Of a DNA stretch of 64,000 nt, positions 17,017 to 28,672 are shown piece after piece. The notes under the pieces were generated by a model that was not told where the DNA came from, did no database searches, and saw nothing but the letters and a program-made list of their open reading frames with translations. Source of the stretch: Acidobacteriota bacterium. GTDB taxonomy: Bacteria > Acidobacteriota > Thermoanaerobaculia > Gp7-AA8. The stretch's first letter is position 1. Every line of letters begins with the position of its first letter. Location: assembly GCA_003223645.1 (NCBI GenBank), contig QHVT01000008.1, positions 62,001 through 126,000 on the forward strand. Direction: 5' to 3'. The translations under genes and the position numbers were made by a program.

Positions 17017-17055
17017 GTCGTGCGCGCCAAAAGCAATGCATCAGCAGTGGCGCAA

Positions 17056-17379
17056 ATGAAACCGGCCCGGATGCAAATGAAACCGGCCCGGATGCAAGTG
17101 AAACAGGCCCGGATGCAAGTGAAACAGGCCCGGATGCAAATGAAACAGGCCTGGATGCAAGTGAAACAGGCCCGGATGCAAATGAAACAGGCCCGGATGC
17201 AAATGAAACAGGCCCGGATGCAAGTGAAACAGGCCCGGATGCAAGTGAAACAGGCCCGGATGCAAATGAAACAGGCCCGGATGCAAGTGAAACAGGCCCG
17301 GATGCAAGTGAAACAGGCCCGGATGCAAATGAAACAGGCCCGGATGCAGAAACCGGCCCGGATGCAAGTGAAACTGGCT
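17056..17379. repeat. 21-bp minisatellite, about 15 units
   Basis: Fourteen full units and a shorter one built on GAAACAGGCCCGGATGCAA plus two variable bases (A/G). Because 21 is a multiple of 3 and no unit contains a stop, the array is open on both strands: plus reads repeated (M/V)KQARMQ, minus reads FHLHPGL. A plus-strand open frame (17020-17454) spans it, but no ribosome site or conserved flanking domain supports a gene. Confidence 0.9.
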
Positions 17380-17450: not shown

Positions 17451-17715
17451 CTGAAACGCCCGGCGACGATCTACCGTCCATCGCCACGACTGTATCCGGA
17501 ATCACTTCCGCCGATCGAATACCCCGGCCATCTTGAGACCCGAAAGATCGACAGCAGAGGGCATGATGCGGGGGAAGCACGAGCGGATCTTCACGAGCAA
17601 GACCCTGGCGAGCGAACACGTCGGTCTTGAGGAGATCGACAACGGCATCTGGTCGCTCTACCACGGACCGGTACTACTGGCCCGCTTTCGAGGAACGGGA
17701 GATGAGGTTCTATGG
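17451..17715 (+). pseudogene. Frameshifted C-terminal remnant of an IS transposase
   Basis: One frame reads LKRPATIYRPSPRLYPESLP followed by PIEYPGHLETRK. A shifted frame then continues with ERIFTSKTLASEHVGLEEID and NGIWSLYHGPVLLARF. This order is the usual C-terminal tail of DDE integrase-type transposases (IS481/IS3-like), where the same elements lie in one frame. The catalytic DDE region is missing, so it is a decayed fragment and marks the island as a past insertion site. Confidence 0.75.
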
Positions 17716-17960
17716 CTGACGTTCAATGTCCCTACTGGGTCAGAAGGCACGACGCGTGGCAGGTTGTGCTCCTGAGTGATCGAACATCAGCCTATCGTGT
17801 CGACACAGTGCGTTCGTGCGAATTGAATGGACGGCTGACGCTCCGCGTATTGGAAAATCCAACCTCACGAAAACCACCGCCCAGCGACTTCCGACCACTA
17901 CGGGGTGTAACCTATGTGCCCGGTCTGTTTGTCACCCATGTTCCCGGCTGCACGCTCGAG

Positions 17961-19016
17961 TTAGCCGGTGACTTGGTTTGGAGGTGGCCACGTAGACTGA
18001 AGATGTTCGACAACAGCGGTCAAACCTTGTCTCGTGAACGTCTGAGGAATAATAAAGTTCGGATAGCGACCGTCATGTAATCCTACAGCGCGGTCCTCGT
18101 CCGACACCGGCAAGACCAGCGTGATCCGATTGCTTTGCTCGTCGTGGTGAGGTGTGCCGCTTGCTTCTCGTGGGCCGAGCATGTAGAACTGCGATGGCCG
18201 CAGTTGACTCGACCGCCATATAACGCGAGGCACCCAATCGTTCGTATGATGCGCCGCTAAGAGCAGAAGGACAATATCGTTTTTATCTAGGTCATCTGGC
18301 GACGTCTCGTCATGATCTGTTACGTGGCAGATAACGTTCCTTTCGTGAAAAATCTCGGCGATGACGCGTCCTAACGCGGCCTCAGACGGAGCATGCACTA
18401 CCACGACCCGTAACTGAGTGGCTGGTGTGATAGCGACATAGAGTTGTGGCGGCACTCGCTGGCGGAAACGTTGGAATAACGTGTCATACGGCATCAACTG
18501 CACTCCGGGTGGCAGCAGACCGTCGAGTTGCTCTCTGAGAATTTCAGAGGTGACCTTCATTTGAAGTTCGCGCGCCAACACGATTATCAGGAATATGTGT
18601 CCATGGCTGCCCAGGGCGAGTATCGGTTCTGAGCCGCGCACCAATTCACGGCCGAGATTCTGAGCATATACCTTTGCCTGAGCGTATGCGGTCTGGGCAT
18701 CCGCCGACAAACGCAGAACCTGCTCGCGTGGCGATACAAGGATGGAGGTGTCGGCACGCTTCAGTTCGATCGCACCGTAAACAAGCCGACCCGCATCAGC
18801 ATCGTCTGGATAAATGAGGAAATCTGCCTCGGAGCGTCCTGGCCTACCTCGAGGAACGATTTGTGAAGGCTTGAGCCGAAGCGGGAGAGACTCCGAAAGT
18901 ATTTGAGGAAAGGCGGCGAATAGTTGTTGCCACTCTCTTTCAGGCACATTTCGTCGCGCGAGCAGTTCTGCAAAACGTTCGCGCGCTAGACGGAGCGCGG
19001 CCTCCCCCATGGACAT
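17961..19016 (-). CDS. Shedu-like (DUF4263-type) nuclease with C-terminal TIR-like domain
   Basis: 351 residues. The N-terminal part (about 20-100) has the layout of Shedu/DUF4263 defence nucleases: a leading REWQQLFAAFPQILSESLPL, then a PD-(D/E)xK core with the acid in SEADFLIYPDD and the ExK in AIELKRADTS. The C-terminal part (about 205-300) begins TQLRVVVVHAPSEAALGRVI and has a hydrophobic strand NDIVLLLLAAHHTNDWVPRV, which resembles TIR-like or SEFIR-like folds. Shedu proteins are known anti-phage nucleases; the TIR call is weaker. The gene is less GC-rich than its neighbours and lies alone among repeats and a transposase remnant, consistent with transfer. ATG 19016 lacks a clear ribosome site; the ATG two codons later is an alternative. 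Confidence 0.6.
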   Translation of the reverse strand: MSMGEAALRLARERFAELLARRNVPEREWQQLFAAFPQILSESLPLRLKPSQIVPRGRPGRSEADFLIYPDDADAGRLVYGAIELKRADTSILVSPREQVLRLSADAQTAYAQAKVYAQNLGRELVRGSEPILALGSHGHIFLIIVLARELQMKVTSEILREQLDGLLPPGVQLMPYDTLFQRFRQRVPPQLYVAITPATQLRVVVVHAPSEAALGRVIAEIFHERNVICHVTDHDETSPDDLDKNDIVLLLLAAHHTNDWVPRVIWRSSQLRPSQFYMLGPREASGTPHHDEQSNRITLVLPVSDEDRAVGLHDGRYPNFIIPQTFTRQGLTAVVEHLQSTWPPPNQVTG

Positions 19017-19547
19017 ATGACAATGGTAACTCGGATCTATTTTCGAGGCCGCGCGCTAGAGACGACGCTGGCGCACAACCGGCCACCGGCGGATGCACGC
19101 GACTAAGGTGGATCTCTCACCGTGCGTTGTCGTCGTCCGCCCAACTCTTTACTTGCCAGGCCAACAACACCCCTCTCAGAGACCACGCACGTTCTGCGGG
19201 CTGCTATCGGCGCGCTGTGTATTCGGCTAAGACGATCCCTATGCGACGTGTAGCGTTACGACGCTGCATGATCTGCTCGAATCGAAATGCTTCACCGCGC
19301 CGCGTTTCGCATGGGATTCGACATCGTGCCCGCAAGTCGATGCCGTTTGTCTGCGGAGGCCGGCCGCGGCGAAGATCTCCAGTCGTGTACGACAAATGTT
19401 CCCTCATACGGGTTCGTGGGCTTGCAACCGCGTCGTCTGAAGCGCAATCCGTCCATATCGATCATCGTCGTGGCGACGTCGCGGTGGCCGGGACTCGGGG
19501 TCGCTGAATTTAGGGAACGCAGGACTTCGTTGCCTTCGCCGACAGTA

Positions 19548-19653
19548 TCGATGGCATCGCCGATGTCAAATGGACTCCGCGGATCGCATCGATGACATCG
19601 CCGATCCCAAATTGACTCCGCGGATTCCATCGATGGCATCGCCGATGTCGGAG
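19548..19653. repeat. 41-bp tandem repeat, 2.6 copies
   Basis: Units start at 19548, 19589 and 19630 with TCGATGGCATCGCCGATGTC or a close variant, followed by AAATGGACTCCGCGGAT. The third unit is partial. Confidence 0.85.
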
Positions 19654-23017: not shown

Positions 23018-26000
23018 CTACTCCACATTCTTCTTCGGCTGATTGGGCTGCTGCTGCCGCGAGTCGATCTTCGTACCGGTCACGCGCAGCGTTCCGGCGG
23101 CAACGGTCGCCGACCGCGTGCCTCCCTGATCGCTGAGCATCGTGACTGCCGGATCGATGTCGATGGAAACGCTCGCCCCTGCGCGTGCCGTGAGCTCGAT
23201 CTCGGCGACGACGACGGACTGTCCCGCCTCGAGACGAGAGCCGCCGGCGCGTTCATCGAACGCAACGAGATAGGCAAGCGCGTCGCGCGACGGACGACTG
23301 AGCTCGAACGCCGGCTGAACGTCGGCGATCGCTCCGGCGCGATGGATGACCGCGCCGCGAACTGCATCGCTGAACGTCACGCGCAGCGACAGCGCTTGCG
23401 GCACGGTCGAATCGGAATCGGTGCTGATGCGCACCGGCACGACGTACTTGCCGTTGCGCAGCATCGGCGTGCCGAGACTCAGCGCACCCGAGAGTTTCAC
23501 CGAGGACGACGTCGTGATTCGCGGCGCCTCGGATGAAGGCGACGGGCCGCTCATGAACAGATAGTTGACGAGATAGAAGATGTCGGCGGAGTCGACGGCG
23601 GCATCGCCGTTCGCATCACCCGAGTCCATTCCCGAAGGTCCGGCCGGAGGCGCGCCGCTGAGGAACAGATAGTTGACGAGCCAGAAGATGTCGGACGGAT
23701 CGACTGCGCCGTCGTTGTTCGCGTCGAACTGTTTCGGGACGTACTTGTAGCCGTTTGTCAGCGTGCCGCTGCTCGAATCCGGATTCGTGACCGTGACGTT
23801 GACGAAGCCCGCGGCGTGCGCAGGAGTCTTGGCCGTCAGTTTCGTCGAGTTGACGAAGACGACGCTCGTCGCGGCGTTGCCGCCGAACGTGATCGCCGCG
23901 CCGCTCTGGAAGTTCGTGCCGTTGATCGTCACGTTCTTGCCGCCGCTGGTCAGGCCGGCCGACGGAACGACGGACGTGATCGTCACCGGCGGCTGTGTAA
24001 CGACGGTGACGTTCGCCGACTTCGTATCCGAGCATCCTGCCGACGTCGTCACGATGCACTGCAGCGTCAACGTTCCCACGGCTCCGGACGTGAACGTGAT
24101 GTTCGTCGTACCGGTGCCGGCGGTGATCGTGCCGTTGGTGATCGACCAGTTGTACGTCGCGCCCACGCCGGCGTTGGCGACGGATGCCGCATGGCCGGTC
24201 GTGTTCGCGGCGACGCTCGACGGAGCGGTGATCGTGGCGTTCGGGTTCGGATTGACGGTCACCGTCTTGACGGCGGACGGTGCGCTGGGGCAGCCGCTCG
24301 TCGTCACGACGACGGTGTAGTCACCCGCGGCCGTTACGACGTACGTCTGATTGGTTTGGCCTCCGATCGGCGAGCCGAAGAGATACCACTGATAGCCGGT
24401 GGCGCTGCTCGAGGTGAGCGTGGTGCTGCCGCCCTGGCAGAAGCTGGAGTTGCCGCTGATCGTCGGCGTTGCCGGAGTCGGATTGACGACGACGGTGGTC
24501 GAGCCGGCGGCCGAGGTGCAGCCGCTGACCGTGATCGTGACGGAATACGATCCGCCATCCGCAGTAGTCGCGCCGCTGCGCGTCGGATTCTGCAGCGATG
24601 ACGTGAAGCCGCCAGGACCGGTCCACGAGTATGTGGCGCCGGCGACGGTCGGCGTGTTGAGTTGAATCGTGTTGCCGGGGCAGTACGGACCGCCGTTCGT
24701 CGCGGTCGGCGTCGCCGGTGTGGCGTTGACGACCACGGTGGTCGAGCCGGCGGCCGAGGTGCAGCCGCTGACCGTGATCGTGACGGAATACAGTCCGCCG
24801 TCCGCGGTGGTCGCGCCGCTGCGCGTCGGATTCTGCAGCGCGGACGTGAAGCCGCCAGGACCGGTCCACGAGTATGTGGCGCCGGCGACGGTGGGCGTGT
24901 TGAGCTGAATCGTGTTGCCGGGGCAGTACGGTCCGGTGTTCGAAGCCGTCGGCGTCGCCGGCGTTGGATTGACGACGACAGTGGTCGAGCCGGCGGCCGA
25001 GGTGCAGCCACTGACCGTGATCGTCACGTTATAGACGTCACCGGCCGTGGTCGTTGCGCCGCTGCGCGTCGAATTCTGCAGTGCGGAGGTGAAGCCACCA
25101 GGACCGGTCCACGCGTACGTGGCGCCGGCGACAGTCGGCGTGTTGAGCTGAATCGTGTTGCCGGGGCAGTACGGACCGGTGTTCGAAGCCGTCGGCGTCG
25201 CCGGAACCGGAGTCTCGGTCACGGCCGTGATCGCGGACATCGGGCTGCTGCAACCCGCCACGTCGGTCACCTGCACGGTGTAGTCGCCGGCGACCGTCAC
25301 GACGATGTTCTGGGTGGTTACGCCGGTCGAAACGGTGTTGAGGTACCACAGATTGCCGGTCGCGCTGCTCGACATCAGTGTCGTGCTGCCGCCGGTGCAG
25401 AAGGTGGCGGTGCCGCTGATGGTCGGCTGCGACGGCGGGACGTCGATCGGCACGTTGATGTTCGTCGACTTATGGCAGCCGCCCGCCTCGACGACACTGA
25501 GCGTGAGCCCGACGTTGCCGGACGCGCCCGCGGTGTAGGTGATGCTCTGGGTGTTGGTCGCCGAGGTGATCGTGCCGTTGGTGATCGACCACGAGTACGA
25601 CGTCGCGCCTGCCGGACCGGCGGCGGTGTTACCCGCCGAGCTCGGACAGACCGTCGTCGGCGTCGGAGTGATGCTGATCGGCGCGCTGCAGTCGACGTTG
25701 TTGAAGCACATCGTGACGTCGTTGATCGTCGGCGTGGCTGCGTTGTTGGTCGTTGCCAGATACGCTTTGTACTTCGCGTAGCGCAGGTTGTAGAGCGACG
25801 TGAGCGAGCCGGGCGACGTGGTAAAGAACGTGCCCGCAGTGCCGTCCGGGCCTACGAAGCTGAACGGTCCGCCCGGAGTGTTCGAGCCGGCGACCTGGAA
25901 CTGCAGAGTCGTGTTCGCGGGCGTCGCGCCATTCCAGGAGAGGGTCGACCAGATCGGAGTGAGTCCTCCGAGCGGGTTACTGTCCTTGTTGTTCGAAACG

Positions 26001-28672
26001 TAGTTGCCGCTCGGCGCGTAACCCGTCTGCATATAGGTTCTGAAGTTGTAGTCGCGGGTGGTATCCGCGGACCACGTTCCGCCGCTGTCGGCCGAGAGCA
26101 CGCGCGAACCGCTGGCATACGTGCCGGGCGACGAGCGAATCCAGAAGTAGCCGCTGCCCGCGGGGGCGGACACCGGACGCAGAATCACAGCGTACTGGGT
26201 TCCGGAGGTGAGCGTTGCGGGCGCGCCGAAAGTGGCGGTGAAAAGAGTGGTCGCGCCGCTCGCGAAGGCGGAGCCGGGGATCGTCACGCTGGCAAGGTCG
26301 GCGCCGGTGGGCAGACCAGCGCTCGTCGCACGAACCGAAAGCGTGAGGTTGGGAGGAGTGGCGCCGCAACCGTTGCAGAAGAGCTGGATATCCGCTTTCG
26401 CGAGCTGGCCGGTCACGCCTGCAATGAACGTCTGACCCGTCCAATTGGGAGTGCCGAAGCCGGTGCCGGTCGTCGTGCCGGCGGTGTTCGCCTGGTCGGA
26501 GACCGGCGCATTCGACAGCGTCACGTCGCCGGGGCTCGTCGTGATGTCGACGTTGGTTCCGACGCCCGTCTGGAAGTCGGTCTGCGTGGTGTCCGTGAGG
26601 CACGCGCTCGTCGGTGCAACCGTGAGCGCGAAGTCCTGCACCGTCGTGCCACCGTCGGTGACGACGATGCTCGATGCGCTGGCGGTGCTGTATCCGGGCT
26701 TGGTGGCGCTGATCGACGGATACGTCCCGGCCGGGATGTTCAGGAACGAGTAGAGGCCGGATCCGTTCGTGGTCGTGCTGCGCGCGCCGAAGGTGATGGT
26801 CGCGCCGCTGATCGGCGTGCCGCCGGGCGTGACGGTGACGGTTCCGCTGAGCGTGCCGCCGGCACCGACCGGAGTGCACGAGGGATACTGGAATGAGCCG
26901 ATCTTGGTCTTCCACCGCTTGTCGAACGTTTGCGACGCGGGGTTGGCGTATTCGTTCGTGTACCAGAACGTACAGCCGTTGGGATCGAGCGACATGTTGC
27001 TGTAGTCGCCCCACCGTGTGCTGCCGGTCTGCGATGCCGTGCCCGTGAACATCATCGTTTCGGTCTGGCTGAACGTGTTGACCGAATCTCCGGCCAGGCG
27101 GCCGGCATAGGCGATCGACGGGAACATCGTCGTGGCGTTGGAGATGCTGTAGCCCATCGCCAGGTTGCCGGCGCGGTCGAGCGCGAGGCTGGGCGTGAAG
27201 CGGTGGTTTACGTTCGCGGCGTCCGGATCCCACGTTGCTGCCTGGGGAATGGCAGGATTTACGTTGCCGCCGGTGACGTCGACCTGATACCAGCGCGGGG
27301 CAGCAAAGCCGCTGGTGTTTGCACGCCGCACGGTATGCGGCACCCAGAGCGATTCGGTACCTCCGAAGTTGGTGTACTGGTTCTGCACCATCGCGCGGAT
27401 CTGCAGGACGTCGAGCAGAGTCGCGGTGCCGGGCTGCGGTGCATTCCCCACGGCGGCGTTCGGCCAGCTCGTGGCGGCGATCGGCGCATCCGGGCCGGTG
27501 AACGTCGACAGCGCAAGGTGATCCCAGTCGACGTGGAACTTGTAGACCGTTACCGCGTTCAGGAATTGCCAGGTCGACATGAAGAGGTTCGGACGTCCCG
27601 GCGGCGGCGTGCCGGTCTGCAGGCGCGCGTTGCTGGGCATGACCGCGAAATCGCCGCCGGGGATGTTGAACGCCACGACCTGCACGGTCGGGCTGCCGGC
27701 ATACATCTGCTGCTTGTTGAACGCCCAGGCTCTGGCTGTCTGGAAGGTCCCGCCGGGGCCGAAGCCGAACATGTTCGCCGACATGTAGATGCCGTCCGGC
27801 CAGATGGCGAGCTTCTCGTAGTCGTTCAGGAAGTCGGAGATCTGGATCGAATAAAAGTTCCAGCCGCCGGTGAGCGGGTTGCCGTTCATCGACACGGCGA
27901 AGCACTGATAGGCAGGACCGAGGGGATTACCGCCACCGTCGGTCAGAAACGCGAAGTCGGTGAGGACCCAGCGGTCTTCGAACGAGTCGTAAAGGACGAC
28001 CGGATCGCCGAAGTTCTCGGTGTCGCAGAGGTTGCCGAAGCTGCCCTGCGCCATCAGCGTATCGAAGGTGAACGCCGTCTGCAGAGCGCCGGCCTTGTCG
28101 TAAATGCCGACCGAGGTGTTGACGGCCTGAATGTAGTACGTCGGTCCGACGTCGCCGGTGGTGTCAGGCGGACTTCCCGCTCCCCAGAACTCGCGATCGA
28201 GACCTTCGAACACGACGTTCGGCCCCGGCGCCGGCGGATTCGCCGTCGGCGGCACATTCGGAATGCTGGGCGGCGGAAGCTCGATGTGGTTGGTGTTCTC
28301 GAGCTCGACGGGCGTGTGCGCCGGTTCCGGCAGCTCGCGCCGATCGCGCACGGACGGCCGGCGCGCCGGTAATGCACGGAGGTCGAACCGCTTGCTCGCC
28401 CCGCGCGTCAACTTCAGCTCGATCGGCTTATTGAATGGAATCGGTCCGGGCTTCGGATTGGTGGCGTCGGTGTCCGAGGACTTCCTTTCCTTCTTCACGT
28501 TTGGACCGCGTCTGGGGCGATCTTTGTCTCGCTCGCCGCTTTCGCTGCTTTCGTTGGTCTTATCGACCGTGACCGGTTTCGCCGGTTGCTTCTTGCGTGT
28601 CGCCGCCTCGGCAGTGCCGAACGTCGATGCAATCATCAACACGAGAAGAAGGAAATAAAGGATTCGTTTCAT
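23018..28672 (-). CDS. Giant secreted protein with PKD/Ig-like repeats, TIG domain, dockerin and cohesin-like domain
   Basis: 1884 residues. Signal peptide (about 1-24), charged linker, then a propeller-like region (about 150-600, VVFEGLDREFWGAGSPPDTT and GRPNLFMSTWQFLNAVTVYK). A carboxypeptidase-regulatory-like domain follows (about 610-690, SGTVTVTPGGTPISGATITF). Next a beta domain, several PKD/Ig-like modules including three near-identical 81-residue ones (YCPGNTIQLNTPTVAGATY), and a TIG domain (PSAGLTSGGKNVTINGTNF). Then a dockerin with two Ca-binding repeats (DANNDGAVDPSDIFWLVNYL; DANGDAAVDSADIFYLVNYL) and a cohesin-like domain to the end. ATG overlaps the stop of the response-regulator gene by 4 bases. 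Confidence 0.9.
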   Translation of the reverse strand: MKRILYFLLLVLMIASTFGTAEAATRKKQPAKPVTVDKTNESSESGERDKDRPRRGPNVKKERKSSDTDATNPKPGPIPFNKPIELKLTRGASKRFDLRALPARRPSVRDRRELPEPAHTPVELENTNHIELPPPSIPNVPPTANPPAPGPNVVFEGLDREFWGAGSPPDTTGDVGPTYYIQAVNTSVGIYDKAGALQTAFTFDTLMAQGSFGNLCDTENFGDPVVLYDSFEDRWVLTDFAFLTDGGGNPLGPAYQCFAVSMNGNPLTGGWNFYSIQISDFLNDYEKLAIWPDGIYMSANMFGFGPGGTFQTARAWAFNKQQMYAGSPTVQVVAFNIPGGDFAVMPSNARLQTGTPPPGRPNLFMSTWQFLNAVTVYKFHVDWDHLALSTFTGPDAPIAATSWPNAAVGNAPQPGTATLLDVLQIRAMVQNQYTNFGGTESLWVPHTVRRANTSGFAAPRWYQVDVTGGNVNPAIPQAATWDPDAANVNHRFTPSLALDRAGNLAMGYSISNATTMFPSIAYAGRLAGDSVNTFSQTETMMFTGTASQTGSTRWGDYSNMSLDPNGCTFWYTNEYANPASQTFDKRWKTKIGSFQYPSCTPVGAGGTLSGTVTVTPGGTPISGATITFGARSTTTNGSGLYSFLNIPAGTYPSISATKPGYSTASASSIVVTDGGTTVQDFALTVAPTSACLTDTTQTDFQTGVGTNVDITTSPGDVTLSNAPVSDQANTAGTTTGTGFGTPNWTGQTFIAGVTGQLAKADIQLFCNGCGATPPNLTLSVRATSAGLPTGADLASVTIPGSAFASGATTLFTATFGAPATLTSGTQYAVILRPVSAPAGSGYFWIRSSPGTYASGSRVLSADSGGTWSADTTRDYNFRTYMQTGYAPSGNYVSNNKDSNPLGGLTPIWSTLSWNGATPANTTLQFQVAGSNTPGGPFSFVGPDGTAGTFFTTSPGSLTSLYNLRYAKYKAYLATTNNAATPTINDVTMCFNNVDCSAPISITPTPTTVCPSSAGNTAAGPAGATSYSWSITNGTITSATNTQSITYTAGASGNVGLTLSVVEAGGCHKSTNINVPIDVPPSQPTISGTATFCTGGSTTLMSSSATGNLWYLNTVSTGVTTQNIVVTVAGDYTVQVTDVAGCSSPMSAITAVTETPVPATPTASNTGPYCPGNTIQLNTPTVAGATYAWTGPGGFTSALQNSTRSGATTTAGDVYNVTITVSGCTSAAGSTTVVVNPTPATPTASNTGPYCPGNTIQLNTPTVAGATYSWTGPGGFTSALQNPTRSGATTADGGLYSVTITVSGCTSAAGSTTVVVNATPATPTATNGGPYCPGNTIQLNTPTVAGATYSWTGPGGFTSSLQNPTRSGATTADGGSYSVTITVSGCTSAAGSTTVVVNPTPATPTISGNSSFCQGGSTTLTSSSATGYQWYLFGSPIGGQTNQTYVVTAAGDYTVVVTTSGCPSAPSAVKTVTVNPNPNATITAPSSVAANTTGHAASVANAGVGATYNWSITNGTITAGTGTTNITFTSGAVGTLTLQCIVTTSAGCSDTKSANVTVVTQPPVTITSVVPSAGLTSGGKNVTINGTNFQSGAAITFGGNAATSVVFVNSTKLTAKTPAHAAGFVNVTVTNPDSSSGTLTNGYKYVPKQFDANNDGAVDPSDIFWLVNYLFLSGAPPAGPSGMDSGDANGDAAVDSADIFYLVNYLFMSGPSPSSEAPRITTSSSVKLSGALSLGTPMLRNGKYVVPVRISTDSDSTVPQALSLRVTFSDAVRGAVIHRAGAIADVQPAFELSRPSRDALAYLVAFDERAGGSRLEAGQSVVVAEIELTARAGASVSIDIDPAVTMLSDQGGTRSATVAAGTLRVTGTKIDSRQQQPNQPKKNVE
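24463..25200. repeat. Three tandem 243-bp coding repeats
   Basis: Three in-frame copies of an 81-codon Ig-like module with very high nucleotide identity (each contains GTCGAGCCGGCGGCCGAGGT). They differ mainly at a few codons, which suggests recent expansion or ongoing conversion. Confidence 0.85.

Follow-up and report, generated by a model that had tools for sequence, protein, structure and literature searches.

A Shedu-type nuclease gene at an attI-like site in an Acidobacteriota genome: a candidate defence cassette of a chromosomal integron

Within the 64,000 nucleotides of DNA that were analyzed (the window), the gene for the 351-residue protein P0001 (17961–19016, minus strand) is best explained as encoding a single-gene defence nuclease and as being the attI-proximal cassette in a chromosomal integron. 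We give this reading a probability of about two thirds (0.68). The identity of the protein as a nuclease, the location of its gene, with an attI-like site on one side and an attC core on the other, and the defence-type genes among the other cassettes are all read from the sequence.

The gene and its neighbourhood

The open reading frame is intact and its coding status is certain because a homologue from another part of the phylum shares 49% identity with it over 190 residues. As the first-pass annotation had noticed, the gene is lower in GC than its neighbours (55.1% with a GC3 of 0.55 versus 62–66% with a GC3 of 0.74–0.86) and does not belong to a cohesive operon. It stands alone, with a small ORF that reads as lipoprotein-like and the gene of an Ig-like protein on its 5′ side and with a peptidase-like gene farther away on its 3′ side. 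The repeats and the transposase remnant which had been seen in the flanks are also present. A 21-bp tandem repeat array (17052–17378, 15.7 copies according to Tandem Repeats Finder) adjoins the cassette site, 41-bp repeats were found at 19547–19649 in a repeat search of the window, and a transposase remnant, to which we return below, occupies 17453–17959. The claim of a repeat-rich defence island is therefore correct with respect to the repeats, but what we find is not a generic island: it is the attI and cassette region of an integron, with an attC that has taken up a now decayed IS481-like insertion. The 21-bp repeat is also present at many other places of the genome, some of them near cassette sites. 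Elsewhere in the window a 243-bp unit is repeated three times in tandem (24461–25205) within the large gene of a secreted-type protein (23018–28672).

Close relatives of P0001 were found neither in the genome contigs nor in the viral contigs, phages or plasmids searched. We rejected 27 exact pattern matches in the genome contigs, which are unrelated proteins, as well as weak matches of the genome search among the loci L002–L020, which proved unrelated on inspection. P0001 is a rare low-GC cassette which was not found in the other genomes searched, with the exception of the homologue in the genome G172.

The N-terminal nuclease module

The nuclease module comprises residues 6–196 (18429–19001, minus strand). 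The domain itself spans approximately residues 12–190, so that only a few residues are located N-terminal to it. The sole Pfam match of P0001 is SduA_C (E = 3.3e-4), which at 21.3 bits lies below the curated cut-off of 27. When P0001 and its homologue were used as a pair in an hhalign comparison with three Shedu nuclease domains, one of them solved (8TI8), the match extended across the domain with a probability of 97% and E = 7.2e-11. D65, E84-x-K86, Q113 and the terminal YD element of P0001 align with 8TI8 and the two other Shedu domains; the sequence similarity to Shedu is low (23–27%). We regard it as established by this sequence evidence that the N-terminal half is a Shedu/SduA-type PD-(D/E)xK nuclease domain which has kept its motif residues, in agreement with the PD-(D/E)xK core and the Shedu/DUF4263-like flanks proposed by the first-pass annotation.

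The only homologue found is encoded by G172, which belongs to another class of the same phylum, and the similarity covers residues 6–196 of P0001 (E = 3.6e-47). This protein exceeds the SduA_C cut-off (28 bits) and matches the SduA models of PADLOC. Its C-terminus is ECF-sigma-like (Sigma70_r4_2, sigma-70 region 4, E = 1e-8). As this region follows the same nuclease, the C-terminal module differs between P0001 and its homologue. An N-terminal nuclease with a differing C-terminal module is the unusual architecture that the two predicted proteins bear out; to this extent the earlier claim of an uncommon architecture stands, whereas a nuclease–TIR fusion is not demonstrated. The gene of the homologue (L040:8612-9928, contig C5 of G172) overlaps a SIR2_2 gene. 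Its surroundings further contain, by reading, a KAP-type NTPase, an HTH/ImmA-like protein and three phage-integrase-like genes.

The C-terminal module

The C-terminal module (residues 197–351; 17964–18428, minus strand) is predicted to consist of alternating strands and helices. The first-pass annotation had seen in this half a strand pattern resembling TIR or SEFIR folds and had proposed HMM searches for DUF4263, TIR and SEFIR together with structure prediction as a check. The searches recovered the nuclease family, with the score below cut-off given above, but no TIR, TIR_2 or SEFIR model matched at E ≤ 10, neither with the full protein nor with the C-terminal half, and residues 197–351 have no Pfam match. 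For the full protein there was also no convincing further match in PHROGs, PADLOC, NCBIfam and the PDB, and PADLOC yielded no TIR or SEFIR match. AlphaFold, run without an alignment, was applied to all of P0001 and separately to its C-terminal module; both models had a pLDDT of 39, and neither was good enough to be used in a fold search.

The module begins with what reads as strand–helix–strand, and against a profile built from five TIR members the C-terminal half obtained the best score of all non-members (E = 0.007–0.03). TIR genes are moreover frequent among the cassettes of the same genome. These observations would fit a nuclease–TIR fusion in which an active TIR NADase or a TIR signalling domain controls the Shedu nuclease or acts jointly with it. 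However, the profile match is limited to about 40 residues and has a probability of 2–6%, and the score is scarcely above that of shuffled sequences, one of the 200 shuffles scoring higher. In addition, a valine (in NDWVPRV) is found by eye at the place of the TIR catalytic glutamate, in a region without reliable alignment, and therefore an NADase would be unlikely even if the module had a TIR fold. Taken together with the missing family matches in Pfam and PADLOC, the TIR/SEFIR fold was not confirmed. We consider the nuclease–TIR fusion unlikely, and that the C-terminal half is TIR-like at all seems rather improbable to us.

The attI-like site upstream of the gene

Upstream of P0001 we find an attI-like site (19139–19412, minus strand) with the core GTTGGGC at 19139–19145. 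The window sequence from 19134 to 19412 recurs at three other loci of the genome (L076:4599-4899, L083:2316-2510 and L098:6205-6486). The four loci are 75–85% identical up to the core and 30–49% identical past the core, and the pairwise identity drops right after it. Their cores read GTTGGGC, GTTAGGC or GTTAGCC (GTTRRRY-type), and each core is followed by a different gene, which in the window is P0001. This four-locus pattern is what one would expect of integron attI sites that each have another gene as their first cassette. The genome contains at least four of these dispersed attI-like sites, and none of them is adjoined by an intact integrase gene.

At 19406–19489 (minus strand), just upstream of the attI-like site, the 3′ end of an integron integrase gene may have left a weak trace. 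A tblastn search against the 64-kb window gave 52% over 29 amino acids with E = 0.026, and a profile search was not significant. In G001, a genome of the same genus, the integrase gene is followed, about 170 bp past its 3′ end, by a GTTAGGC core. The position of the trace would agree with this layout, an agreement which we take as suggestive only. No integron integrase over the cut-off was found in this assembly. Within the same family a strong integron integrase match (E ≤ 1e-40) is present in 12 of 18 genomes, including G001, nine being over the curated cut-off. Contig C35 encodes a candidate integrase, which we discarded: positions 181–236 of the integron integrase model are unmatched, and by reading the protein resembles a recombinase beside an IS91-like transposase. 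The 5.4 kb contig itself (L096, G000:C35), on which a tyrosine recombinase and an IS91-like transposase can be read next to each other, is possibly foreign or contaminating DNA.

The attC core and the IS481-like remnant at the 3′ end of the gene

At the other end of the gene the TAA stop codon of P0001 is included in an attC R′-type core, GGCTAAC (17960–17966, minus strand). Inserted in this attC is the decayed 3′ part of an IS481-like element (17453–17959, plus strand), whose right inverted repeat lies at about 17905–17956. Of the putative attC of P0001, the R′-type core and the adjoining stub are present at the stop codon, the rest having been replaced by the IS481-like remnant. As the far half of the site is lost, this suggests that the P0001 cassette is probably locked in place and that normal excision is no longer possible.

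The genome has about 17 complete or partial copies of the window sequence from 17453 to 17966, mostly at 74–82% identity, and fuller copies of the element carry rve or rve_3 domains. In 14 of the 15 copies examined, the same stub and a GTTRRRY-type core come after the end of the element, and beyond them the sequence is unique; the type of the core and its place are the same as at P0001. Most copies have an opposite-strand ORF that ends at the attC core or close to it, and this ORF is not the same from copy to copy.

The remnant abuts the stop codon of P0001 and in many copies the element abuts different genes, and one could therefore regard P0001 as a passenger of an IS481-like transposon and not as an integron cassette. 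The fuller copy at L076:6940-8410 argues against this: it is about 1.45 kb long, both inverted repeats are present and enclose the transposase alone, and attC sequence resumes beyond them. Cassettes without the IS481-like element, moreover, carry full attC sites, and the upstream boundary of P0001 is an integron-type core and not an IS end. Given the extent of the L076 element and this upstream boundary, we rejected the transposon-passenger reading, to which we leave hardly any probability, and continue to treat P0001 as an integron cassette.

Other cassettes of the genome

Other cassettes of the same genome are followed by attC sites of about 185–200 nt. These sites begin with a GCCTAAC/GCCCAAC-type core, end with a GTTAGGC/GTTGGGC-type core and have a long imperfect palindrome in between. 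Full attC sites are found in L077, L082 and L098, and one attC has 36 matches in the genome, whole or partial. In the predicted fold of the opposite strand of one attC both cores are paired, with an energy slightly better than that of shuffles (z = −1.2); a 150-nt part of the top strand of one attC folds no better than shuffles. Many of the cassette loci are located at or near contig ends, and therefore the arrays have probably been broken by the assembly.

The genes adjoining the cores and attC sites code for SIR2_2, CAP12/Pycsar TIR, TIR_2 and Schlafen AlbA_2 proteins, a GNAT protein, an LMW phosphatase, an APP1 phosphatase, a methyltransferase and a DUF4160 protein. PADLOC matches among the cassette genes are TIR effectors, SIR2 and AbiGi. 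A pentapeptide–TIR gene is found near a GTTRRRY-type core on contig C39. On another contig (L097:3078-7006, G000:C50) a small stand-alone TIR gene overlaps an ORF of 1196 aa which starts with a second, divergent TIR-type domain.

Proposed function

We infer a defence role of P0001 because of its Shedu family, its cassette neighbours and the SIR2 neighbour of its relative in G172. Defence, the function suggested by the first-pass annotation, is the likeliest one, and taken as a whole the interpretation of that annotation is partly supported. As judged from the conservation of the motif, the nuclease would cut invading DNA in a metal-dependent manner. The C-terminal module probably takes over the control role (sensing, gating or oligomerisation) which in characterised Shedu is held by the N-terminal clamp, as the exchange of domains suggests. 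This module may be exchangeable, since the only homologue found has an ECF-sigma-like one in its place. Finally, the first cassette position may favour expression: P0001 adjoins attI, and therefore its position is expected to be the best expressed one (PMC12409362).

P0001 might alternatively not be a defence effector, its Shedu-derived nuclease domain serving cellular regulation or DNA maintenance instead. Such a role would be compatible with the fusion of the G172 homologue to an ECF-sigma-like domain. On the other hand the residues of the nuclease motif are conserved, the homologue adjoins a SIR2_2 protein, and P0001 is a rare low-GC cassette in a genome in which several other cassettes are of defence type, which makes a non-defence role quite improbable in our view. 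Returning to the defence nuclease, a wider generalisation can be formulated. P0001 and its homologue could represent a class of Shedu proteins with inverted domain order, having the nuclease in front and a control domain that is exchanged at the C-terminus (divergent, TIR-like and probably NADase-dead in P0001, ECF-sigma-like in G172), and this class could have spread in part as integron cassettes. We put this forward tentatively, as a possible but doubtful extension.

If these proposals are true, Shedu control would also proceed via exchangeable C-terminal modules, beyond the N-terminal clamps, and a comparison of the two fusions would be a direct test of the idea that the accessory domain sets the specificity. 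The view of chromosomal integrons as libraries of defence genes would also reach past Vibrio, to a lineage in which several attI-like sites are dispersed.

Comparison with known systems

P0001 resembles Shedu (SduA; PF14082/DUF4263; 8TI8, 8TI9, 8TIA) in being a single gene, in its PD-(D/E)xK domain of about 160–180 residues, in the D/ExK/Q motifs and in the terminal YD/FDEL element. In characterised Shedu the nuclease is C-terminal, behind an N-terminal clamp that binds DNA ends and releases it (PMC12904381), whereas in P0001 the nuclease is N-terminal and the extra module C-terminal. A precedent for a nuclease and a TIR in one chain are the restriction-nuclease–TIR partners of short Argonautes (PADLOC Aga_REase-TIR). 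This model was matched by other proteins searched but not by P0001, whose TIR identity is putative and which has no adjoining Argonaute gene among the ORFs examined.

Defence genes are known to be stored in chromosomal integrons, such as those of Vibrio (PMC12409362), and as in Vibrio the single-gene defence-type cassettes described here are found beside attI or in attC arrays. The lineage is a different one, however, the several attI-like sites are dispersed without an adjoining integrase, and the attC of P0001 is interrupted. For the IS1111-attC insertion sequences repeated insertion at one attC end has been described (PMC11187229). The IS481-like element likewise recurs at one attC position (in the 14 of 15 copies mentioned above), but it has an rve-type DDE transposase and not the DEDD transposase of IS1111.

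In the literature searched, the coverage of which was partial, we found no description of the architecture and setting of P0001. Shedu nucleases are already known, as are defence genes carried by integrons and insertion sequences that target attC (PMC12904381, PMC12409362, PMC11187229), and what appears to be new is the order of the domains with the differing C-terminus together with the integron setting.
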